Assembly: GCA_025054955.1 (NCBI GenBank)
Contig: JANWZE010000056.1
Span: 1-64,000, forward strand
From: Blastocatellia bacterium
Lineage (GTDB): Bacteria; Acidobacteriota; Blastocatellia; HR10; J050
DNA length: 64,000 nt
Reading direction: 5' to 3'
Positions 10,534 to 12,946 of the stretch are shown one piece after another. The stretch's first letter is position 1, and the number at the start of each line of letters is the position of its first letter. The notes under the pieces were generated by a model. The model saw only the letters and a program-made list of their open reading frames with translations. It was not told where the DNA came from and did not search any database. Both the position numbers and the translations under genes were made by a program.

Positions 10534-10658
10534 GAAAATGCAGATGCAGATTGAATGATGAAATGATTTTCAATCAGTAACTCTATCAATCCTTGCTGAT
10601 GCTGCGAAGTCGGTGGACAAACGTTCCGGCACATTTGGGGGACGGGACGTTTTGGCGT

Positions 10659-10679
10659 GCGGTGACGCATCACCGCTTT
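10659..10679 (+). terminator. Weak hairpin, possible terminator
   Basis: GCGGTGA, a CGCA loop and TCACCGC form a perfect 7 bp hairpin (10659-10676) followed by TTT. It lies 125 bp after the P-loop gene. The U-run is short, so terminator function is doubtful. The rest of 10534-10770 shows nothing I recognise, except a decayed resemblance to the window's dispersed intergenic repeat around 10680-10720. Confidence 0.25.
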
Positions 10680-10770
10680 CCGGCCAAAGCTGGGACACGT
10701 CGCAGCAGTCCAAAAACGCCACAAACTTTTGTCACGTTACTGAGTCTAAAGAAAGGCCGATGACCAGGCG

Positions 10771-11052: not shown

Positions 11053-11401
11053 CGCTTACGTTGCCTCAGGAACGGCGCTCGAAGCGGGATGACCTATGAT
11101 CAAGCTGATTCAAGCAGCTCGACGCAAGCCTCAGGGACACTGCGCGGAAGATCAAACACGGTCACACCCGCCTTGCTTGTTCACTGATCTTCAACAGGCG
11201 GCCATTAACAAAAAACTTGACAAATAACCGCCACAAAGCCGAAAATAAGGCTCCGATTTCGATATGACGAAGCCTGCTGCAACCAGAATGGCTCATGTCG
11301 CCAACGTCGCGGCCACTTCGGCGTGCGTGGCTCGGCCTTCGTTGATCAATCTTGTTTTGACTCCTCTCCTTGGTTTACTCCTAGGCATTATCCTCCTCGT
11401 A
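11053..11401. other. Intergenic stretch without a supported gene
   Basis: I see no intact gene here. On the minus strand two short overlapping frames (around 11240-11100, with pieces like NGRLLKISEQARRV and VFDLPRSVPEACVELLES) look protein-like and are broken by a frame change near 11163. This could be a decayed gene, but there is too little to call it. Confidence 0.3.
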
Positions 11402-11490
11402 CTAGCGAGGGGCAGTGGATGAGGCACTGATCCTCCATCGGAGTGGAGACAAAGGCCACCGTCCACTGCCCCTAGCGACGGTGGCCTTTT
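11402..11490 (+). promoter_or_regulatory. Candidate cis-regulatory RNA (attenuator) before the cupin gene
   Basis: Two long pairings compete. GGGGCAGTGGA (11409-11419) is perfectly complementary to TCCACTGCCCC (11462-11472), with an outer CTA/TAG extension across a GCGA bulge. The 3' partner overlaps the ascending arm and loop of a strong terminator hairpin (11451-11489). Between them are smaller hairpins (GAGG/CCTC at 11421-11435 and CTCC/GGAG at 11433-11443). This is the layout of a riboswitch or other attenuator: an upstream fold that sequesters or frees the terminator. I do not recognise a known aptamer family. Confidence 0.55.
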
Positions 11491-11496
11491 ATTTTA
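11451..11496 (+). terminator. Intrinsic terminator inside the cupin leader
   Basis: AAAGGCCACCGTC (11451-11463) pairs perfectly with GACGGTGGCCTTT (11477-11489) across a 13 nt loop and runs into TTTTATTTTATT. It sits 31 bp before the cupin ATG, so it ends transcription ahead of the gene unless it is prevented from folding. Confidence 0.8.
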
Positions 11497-11520
11497 TTCT
11501 CAGCAGGAGAAAACAGGATC

Positions 11521-11886
11521 ATGAATCAGCACTATTGGAATCAAACGGAATCATTCACTATGAAAGAAAACTTTTTCCGCAAGTTGGTCATGGGCGATCA
11601 ACTGACGATTGCGCGCACCGAGATGGACACAGGCGCGCGACTGCAACCGCGTTGCTATCCTTGTGAATCGTTCATTGTGATCTTAACCGGCCTTTGTAAA
11701 GTTCGTGTCAACGGACGCGCCGACATAATCGGCGCCAATCAGATTCTGCATGTTCCTGCTTACGCGGAGCATGATATTGAAGCGTTGGAGCACACATTGG
11801 CGTTGGAAATTCAGCCTCGGTCGCCGGCGTTGCCCCCTGAACGAAGCGGATTGATGGAGGACGAGAACTATCTTTGGGGTGTCTAG
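11521..11886 (+). CDS. Small cupin-domain protein with altered metal site
   Basis: A single-domain cupin of 121 residues, cytosolic. AGGAG at 11504-11508 supports ATG 11521. The fold is recognisable from MGDQLTIARTEM, a central VILTGLCKVRVNG hairpin and the late PAYAEHDIEAL motif with its His. The first motif, usually HxHxxE, reads RCYPCESF. The two His ligands are replaced by Arg and Tyr and a Cys is introduced, while the Glu remains. It may therefore not bind the usual metal, or may use Cys. A strong terminator and a competing hairpin lie upstream, so expression is probably controlled by premature termination. Ligand unknown. Confidence 0.8.
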   Translation: MNQHYWNQTESFTMKENFFRKLVMGDQLTIARTEMDTGARLQPRCYPCESFIVILTGLCKVRVNGRADIIGANQILHVPAYAEHDIEALEHTLALEIQPRSPALPPERSGLMEDENYLWGV

Positions 11887-12070
11887 CCGGCGTCTCGCTC
11901 TGCCTGCGCCAACCATTGCCGCTATAGCAAGAGTCGGCGGACAAAGCGCCGGTCAGTTTTAGGCTCTTGCTCCATCTCAACCAATGATTGCCGCTATCGG
12001 TCTGCTCCGGTAGCGGCATGGCAGCCGAGGCCGGTTTTTCACCGATGTTTCCCTCATCTGCATGTGGTGT

Positions 12071-12076
12071 TATAAT
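12071..12076 (+). promoter_or_regulatory. -10 box upstream of mqnD
   Basis: A perfect TATAAT at 12071-12076; the matching -35 position (12048-12053, TTTCCC) is poor. Transcription would start near 12083. Confidence 0.4.
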
Positions 12077-12109
12077 GCAGCCCTGGCTTACATGGGAGAC
12101 AAACATCAC

Positions 12110-12946
12110 ATGGAAACTCGCCATATTACCATCGCTCACAGTCCTGATTCTGATGATGCATTCATGTTTTATGCGTTAGCTACCGGAAAATTGGACACAG
12201 GTCACCTCACCTTCAGTCACGTGCTGACGGACATCGAAACACTGAATCGAAAAGCGTTGGACGAGGTCTACGACGTGACGGCCGTTTCGATTCATGCTTA
12301 CGCCTACATTGCCGATAAATACCTGCTGCTGCCGAGCGGCGCCAGTATGGGGGAGCAATATGGGCCGATTGTCGTCTCAGCGCGCCCGCTTGCGCCGGCT
12401 CAGTTACGAGGCAAGCGACTCGCAGTTCCCGGCCTGATGACAACGGCTTATCTTGTGATGAAGCTCTTTGAGCCCGACGTCGAGTGCGAAGTCATGCCCT
12501 TCGATCGCATCATAGAGGCTGTGGCCGCCCAGGCCGTTGATGCCGGCTTGCTCATTCACGAAGGCCAGCTCACTTATGCTGAAGAAGGCTTACACAAGGT
12601 TATTGATCTGGGCCACTGGTGGTATCAGCAAACGCGCTTGCCGTTGCCGCTAGGCGGCAACGTGATCAAGCGGAGTCTGGGCCCTGAGCTGATTGCGCAG
12701 ATCGCCCAGTATCTCAGGCAAAGCATTCAGTACGGCCTCGCCCATCGGGAAGAAGCGCTCGCTTATGCCCTGAGTTTCGCGCGCGGCATGAGTGGGCAAC
12801 TCACCGATCGTTTTATTGAGATGTACGTCAACGACCTGACGCTCGATTACGGTGACAACGGCCGCGAGGCCGTCCAACGGCTGCTCGACATGGGGCATGA
12901 ACGCGGTTTCATTCCGCATCGCGTCCAGGTTGAGTTCGCCGCGTGA
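12110..12946 (+). CDS. mqnD: 1,4-dihydroxy-6-naphthoate synthase-like protein
   Basis: A 278-residue protein of the MqnA/MqnD family, which adopts a periplasmic-binding-protein fold but acts in the cytosol. MqnD cleaves cyclic dehypoxanthine futalosine to 1,4-dihydroxy-6-naphthoate in the futalosine route to menaquinone. Support: the N-terminal IAHSPDSDDAFMFYAL motif, the AVSIHAYAYI segment, GKRLAVPGLMTTAYLV and the ligand-site LLIHEGQLTY. I start at ATG 12110 because GGGAG lies about 11 nt before it; ATG 12092 is an alternative. The classical family motif is SPCPNDTF, here SPDSDDAF, so it is a somewhat divergent member. Other futalosine genes are not in the window. Confidence 0.8.
   Translation: METRHITIAHSPDSDDAFMFYALATGKLDTGHLTFSHVLTDIETLNRKALDEVYDVTAVSIHAYAYIADKYLLLPSGASMGEQYGPIVVSARPLAPAQLRGKRLAVPGLMTTAYLVMKLFEPDVECEVMPFDRIIEAVAAQAVDAGLLIHEGQLTYAEEGLHKVIDLGHWWYQQTRLPLPLGGNVIKRSLGPELIAQIAQYLRQSIQYGLAHREEALAYALSFARGMSGQLTDRFIEMYVNDLTLDYGDNGREAVQRLLDMGHERGFIPHRVQVEFAA

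Follow-up and report, generated by a model that had tools for sequence, protein, structure and literature searches.

A probable ilv/leu-type leader-peptide attenuator upstream of a cupin-like gene in a Blastocatellia bacterium, with related elements across Acidobacteriota

The window analysed here, a 64,000-nucleotide stretch of DNA from a Blastocatellia bacterium (contig JANWZE010000056.1), carries on its forward strand a gene for a small cupin-like protein of 121 amino acids (11521-11886), preceded on the same strand by the promoter, leader and RNA elements described below. An AGGAG located 11 nt 5' of its ATG (11505-11509) is, from sequence, the putative Shine-Dalgarno motif of this gene and lies 3' of an intrinsic terminator. 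The terminator stands between the cupin gene and a Leu/Ile-rich leader ORF of 52 amino acids (11264-11422; MTKPAATRMAHVANVAATSACVARPSLINLVLTPLLGLLLGIILLVLARGSG, followed by the stop codon), which begins at a candidate start codon without a strong Shine-Dalgarno sequence and ends in LLGLLLGIILLVLARGSG (in a longer stretch, LINLVLTPLLGLLLGIILLVLARGSG) at the stop codon. Further upstream, a candidate promoter (TTGACA-18-GAAAAT, 11217-11246) matches the consensus at 10 of 12 positions, 1.8 such sites being expected by chance in the scanned region; two relatives, G001 and G002, carry a TTGACA at a comparable place, 43-47 nt 5' of the leader ATG. The gene that follows the cupin (12062-12946) is a menaquinone biosynthesis gene (Pfam VitK2_biosynth), which adjoins the cupin gene in G001 and G002 as well.

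A sequence-only reading of this region had described a perfect 11-bp pairing and a 13-bp terminator hairpin followed by a U-rich run upstream of the cupin gene, and both are present. Positions 11409-11419 (GGGGCAGTGGA) are perfectly complementary to 11462-11472 (TCCACTGCCCC), and the GGGGCAGTGGA motif is unique in the 64-kb window with up to one mismatch allowed. The full antiterminator helix is in fact 13 bp long (11409-11421 with 11460-11472, including one G-U pair), and can be extended to 17 positions with one mismatch (11405-11421 with 11460-11476). Its 5' arm (11409-11421) coincides with the 3' end of the leader ORF, which the sequence-only reading had overlooked, and takes in the final codons of the leader together with most of its TGA stop codon (11420-11422). 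The intrinsic terminator (11451-11497) consists of a 13-bp stem (11451-11463 with 11477-11489), a 13-nt loop (11464-11476) and the U-rich tail TATTTTAT; four bases of the antiterminator 3' arm (11460-11463) are common to the 5' stem of the terminator, and the remainder of that arm lies in the terminator loop. A third, protector (1:2) hairpin (CTCCTCG..CGAGGGG, 11393-11412; -11.2 kcal/mol) is predicted to sequester the antiterminator 5' arm. The region 11390-11530 folds with a z-score of -4.1, and dinucleotide shuffling of the upstream stretch never gave a pairing score as high as that of the antiterminator (0 of 1000 shuffles).

With regard to the leader ORF, 11 of the 14 codons of its putative regulatory run (L L G L L L G I I L L V L A, 11366-11407) specify Ile, Leu or Val. 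Homologous leaders of 45 amino acids, ending in TPLLLGLIISLRLWRGSG before the stop codon, were found in G001 and G002, with alignment gaps of 9 and 3 nt. Between the leaders of the window and G001, the aligned codons carry 2 synonymous and 5 non-synonymous changes, with no excess of synonymous change, and this comparison was uninformative; the coding status of the leader hence rests on the frame-preserving indels, the composition and the homologous leaders.

A DNA search of the window's own genome yielded no second copy of the exact sequence, and the DNA matches obtained in the order at E of about 1e-3 (L049-L052) were rejected as chance matches within coding sequences. Related copies needed a covariance model. 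The first one, R1, was built from the three cupin copies, namely those of the window, of G001 (JALSQX010000067.1, Blastocatellia bacterium) and of G002 (RFHM01000458.1, Acidobacteria bacterium), the latter two belonging to another genus of the same family and carrying the element before the orthologous cupin gene. When 162 genomes of the class were searched with R1, matches were located upstream of ilvB, cimA, gltB and another cupin gene; in the window's own genome, further copies precede ilvB (G000:C101:56939-57046) and gltB (G000:C35:41426-41534). Weak R1 matches without the attenuator architecture (e.g., L062, L064, L067) were dropped. A second model of 13 sequences, R2, detected the element in all 10 genomes of the order, with a best E of about 4e-10 or lower in each, and, under strict filters, in 46 of 396 Acidobacteriota genomes at E<=1e-3; matches of R2 on the opposite strand were discarded as self-complementary terminators. 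The genes downstream of the family comprise ilvB, cimA, ilvD, ilvA, ilvN, gltB, pheA followed by ilvD, and some LysR genes, and were named by Pfam matches (one ilvB of G001, one cimA, gltB and the G021 operon), by tblastn, or otherwise by reading of their N-termini.

Several members of the family are worth recording separately. Three (L136, L137, L145) lie directly 5' of genes for LysR-type regulators in other Acidobacteriota families, and four others, all from one family (L133, L135, L147, L148; f30), adjoin ilvC in convergent orientation, no downstream target being apparent within 1.5 kb. In L138 (G305), ilvD comes after a prephenate dehydratase-like gene whose upstream leader contains Phe and Val codons (VVFGFVGVVVLVVRPTG, then stop) and perhaps senses two amino acids. 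The element lies before gltB in L124 (the own-genome copy named above), in G001 (G001:C83:94773-94875) and in G002 (G002:C237:4114-4216); the gltB leaders (TTAITKVKAITTAVRDG and VTIMISAMTPGGGDG, each before a stop codon), with 21% I/L/V, are not rich in branched-chain residues and may sense Thr/Ile/Met or something else. Apart from the family members, a 104-bp stretch of the window (10637-10740) is 91% identical to an inverted stretch about 400 nt upstream of the ilvB leader of the same genome (L099:827-930), and is a dispersed repeat near two attenuated genes.

The composition of the leaders was scored over the 14 codons preceding the last four. The share of Ile, Leu and Val was 67% in the cupin leaders, 63% for ilvB (a figure slightly lowered by one mis-framed row, L084), 61% for cimA, 61% for ilvD and 64% for ilvN, and 43% for the two ilvA leaders, compared with 23% and 4% in the other two reading frames. 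Furthermore, the residue mix tracks the target gene, cimA leaders being without Val, ilvD leaders consisting of 46% Val, and cupin leaders combining Leu and Ile. The peptide ends vary among members (GSG, KSG, PTG, RFG, DG), as expected if the constraint comes mainly from RNA pairing.

These profiles bear on the suggestion of the sequence-only reading that the RNA is a riboswitch or other attenuator, of which the second part holds. A ligand-binding riboswitch, in which an aptamer ligand would switch between terminator and antiterminator while translation plays no part, would account for a terminator and a competing helix just 5' of the gene and for the strong folding. However, an I/L/V-rich ORF runs into the pairing arm in nearly all members examined, the stop codon lies within that arm, the targets (ilvB, cimA, ilvD and ilvA among them) are branched-chain amino acid genes, and only the arm with the stop codon and the terminator are conserved, the sequence between them being variable. 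Nor was a known aptamer class found, in agreement with the sequence-only reading: a search with the Rfam covariance models returned nothing at the gathering score in the window except tRNA elsewhere, and nothing at E<=1 in nine family members except tRNA. We regard a riboswitch as extremely unlikely and the element as most likely a leader-peptide attenuator.

Covariation among homologues, whose absence the sequence-only reading had named beforehand as refuting its proposal, was found in both the terminator and the antiterminator in an alignment of 31 members (A8). In the terminator, 97.8% of the cells are paired, two-sided compensatory changes occur in 8 of 12 pairs, and 34 cells are changed on both sides, compared with 9.2 in shuffles (none of 500 reaching this value). 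Of the cells in the antiterminator core (GGRUGAYG/CRUNAYCC), 94.3% are paired, and the whole antiterminator helix has 17 two-sided cells versus 7.8 in shuffles (again none of 500). When the antiterminator was shifted by one to three columns, pairing dropped from 80% to at most 54%. As the alignment was fitted to the terminator and not to the antiterminator, the count for the latter carries less bias. Single members illustrate this pattern: in L154, the stop codon TGA is changed to TAA and the 3' arm changes to match, and in L142, with a TAG stop, the match is visible in the sequence, the register of the alignment being off there. Similarly, relatives carry A instead of G at the position equivalent to 11461, where the terminator is kept via a compensatory C to U change and the G-U pair of the antiterminator becomes A-U.

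The same data bear on a further explanation, that is, a gene for a small membrane protein followed by an ordinary terminator, both independent of the cupin gene and with only incidental complementarity of the arms. The ORF does encode a hydrophobic stretch of 20 residues and the terminator does follow it, but the complementarity exceeds that of all 1000 shuffles, the antiterminator covaries, and the same arrangement recurs with varied peptides before ilvB, cimA, ilvD and ilvA, which makes this explanation scarcely credible.

The switching behaviour of the leader was predicted by an in silico ribosome scan, in which the RNA under an advancing ribosome was masked and the terminator probability was obtained from equilibrium folding. 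In the window, this probability was 0.0-0.11 with the A site positioned 13 to 8 codons before the stop codon (L G I I L L, codons 11381-11398), 0.99 at every ribosome position between 7 codons ahead of the stop codon and the stop codon itself, and 0.66 without a ribosome. Changing either arm in silico abolished antitermination and the double mutant regained it, and ribosome-dependent switching was seen in none of 200 shuffles. The sequence-only reading had left the choice between a competing pairing and a pseudoknot; the folding scan and the covariation support competition, and a pseudoknot is not needed. Nevertheless, terminator and antiterminator overlap by only 4 bp in the window, as against 6-13 in the majority of relatives. 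A shorter terminator within a pseudoknot might therefore form in principle, and the competition would be partly topological; the mutual exclusion of the helices in the window, as modelled, is the least certain step of the mechanism. Among the other members, the folding of some (e.g., L113, L115, L143, L153) displays a clear switch and that of several relatives (e.g., L060, L061, L082, L132, L155) does not by equilibrium folding, which means that kinetics must matter there or that the calculation is too simple. The antiterminator of the cupin leader in G003 is weak, 26 of 300 shuffles being equally good.

The scan also bears on a TnaC-like arrest peptide, in which the nascent hydrophobic chain ending in RGSG would sense a small molecule or membrane insertion and hold the ribosome at the stop codon. 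The hydrophobic, helix-like peptide, its conserved (R)GSG end and the location of the stop codon inside the arm would fit this explanation. Yet a ribosome held at the stop codon favours the terminator in the folding scan, and the peptide end varies while the I/L/V composition follows the target gene; we consider such an arrest peptide very unlikely.

Taken together, the cupin gene is very probably controlled by an ilv/leu-type attenuator of transcription that works through a leader peptide and its translating ribosome, a conclusion based on the ORF composition, the alternative helices, their covariation, the homologous elements on ilv genes and the cupins inside ilv operons. Stalling of the ribosome, the identity of the amino acid sensed and the function of the cupin are inferred. 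In the proposed mechanism, a ribosome would translate the short ORF as RNA polymerase proceeds through the leader. With charged Leu-tRNA or Ile-tRNA available, the ribosome would reach the stop codon at 11420 and cover the antiterminator 5' arm, the terminator (11451-11489) would form and the cupin gene would not be transcribed. When Leu or Ile (perhaps Val) is scarce, the ribosome would stall in the Leu/Ile run and block the protector hairpin, leaving the 5' arm to pair with 11460-11472; the terminator would thereby be prevented and the cupin expressed. In the absence of translation, the protector hairpin would tend toward termination.

The window protein itself is probably a diverged cupin. 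Its orthologue in G001 and a homologue from an ilv operon match Pfam Cupin_2 (E of 1.3e-5 and 1.1e-9, respectively), and the window protein gave no Pfam match at the reporting threshold. In place of the metal-binding HxH motif, which ilv-linked cupins mostly retain as HxH..E, the window protein has RCY and the two orthologues (G001, G002) have RCF; without these histidines the protein may bind a ligand rather than act as an enzyme. At the C-terminus, LW[GA]V is common to these cupins (in one case LWAM), being LWGV in the window protein; cupins linked to pdxS/pdxT (L093-L095) were set aside as other paralogues without this end. Cupin homologues are located in the order ilvB-ilvN-ilvC-cupin-ilvD in G010 and G021, ilvB..ilvC-cupin-ilvD in G029, ilvB..ilvC-cupin in G041 and ilvB-ilvE-cupin-ilvC-ilvD in G016 (ilvE being named by reading). 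In G015, G031 and G057 the cupin lies about 3.4-3.6 kb past the attenuator on the same strand, with an inferred gene order, and in G003 it is directly behind the attenuator. Since homologues with the same LW[GA]V lie inside ilv operons, the cupin is assigned to the branched-chain amino acid regulon; judged from gene order and leaders, at least five families of the class have it under putative branched-chain control or within a branched-chain operon. The attenuator family would exert control over the pathway genes ilvB, cimA, ilvD, ilvA and ilvN, with the cupin joining them by association through its homologues in ilv operons, and the protein may be a sensor or accessory protein.

In enterobacteria, the leader-peptide attenuators of ilvGMEDA, ilvBN and leuABCD (ilvL, ivbL, leuL) have long been known. 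The present family resembles them in having a leader rich in regulatory amino acids, protector, antiterminator and terminator hairpins, and branched-chain genes as targets. It differs from them in belonging to another phylum without detected sequence relation, in having a cupin target, in the location of the stop codon within the antiterminator arm and in the 3' arm, most of which lies in the terminator loop. Branched-chain-enriched uORFs before ilvB, with attenuation proposed, were described for the ilvB-II motif (Corynebacterium) and the ilvB-OMG and ilvB (Leptospira) motifs in the motif section cited from PMC10272879; the elements found here occur in other lineages, have another consensus and gave no Rfam match at E<=1, and neither cupin nor cimA or gltB is named as a target in that section (PMC10272879). 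Short ORFs with runs of I/V/L codons that overlap candidate terminators were also noted at ilvB of Actinobacteria, where the mode of regulation was found unclear (PMC1262725); the short I/V/L ORFs are a shared feature, and in the present family the alternative helices covary. A survey of 2010 counted attenuator candidates in Acidobacteria, almost none of them with an associated function (PMC2965389), and in contrast to those unassigned attenuators the present family receives one. Searches of open-access full texts found nothing more on such Acidobacteria attenuators or on a cupin with ilvC/ilvD; the mechanism is already known, and no description of the family, of its spread through the phylum or of its link to the cupin seems to exist in the literature searched.

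Overall, it seems reasonably likely that an undescribed, phylum-wide attenuator family marks a branched-chain regulon which includes a dedicated accessory cupin with LW[GA]V, located either in ilv operons or stand-alone under a Leu/Ile leader. A signal and a mechanism are thereby proposed in a phylum whose attenuators had, according to the 2010 survey, almost all lacked a function (PMC2965389), and a searchable covariance model for the family is provided. An uncharacterised cupin is tied to branched-chain metabolism by three lines, namely its own leader, its homologues inside ilv operons and the shared C-terminal motif, and would be an unexpected target, a stand-alone gene to which a leader-peptide attenuator has been moved or on which it has been kept.
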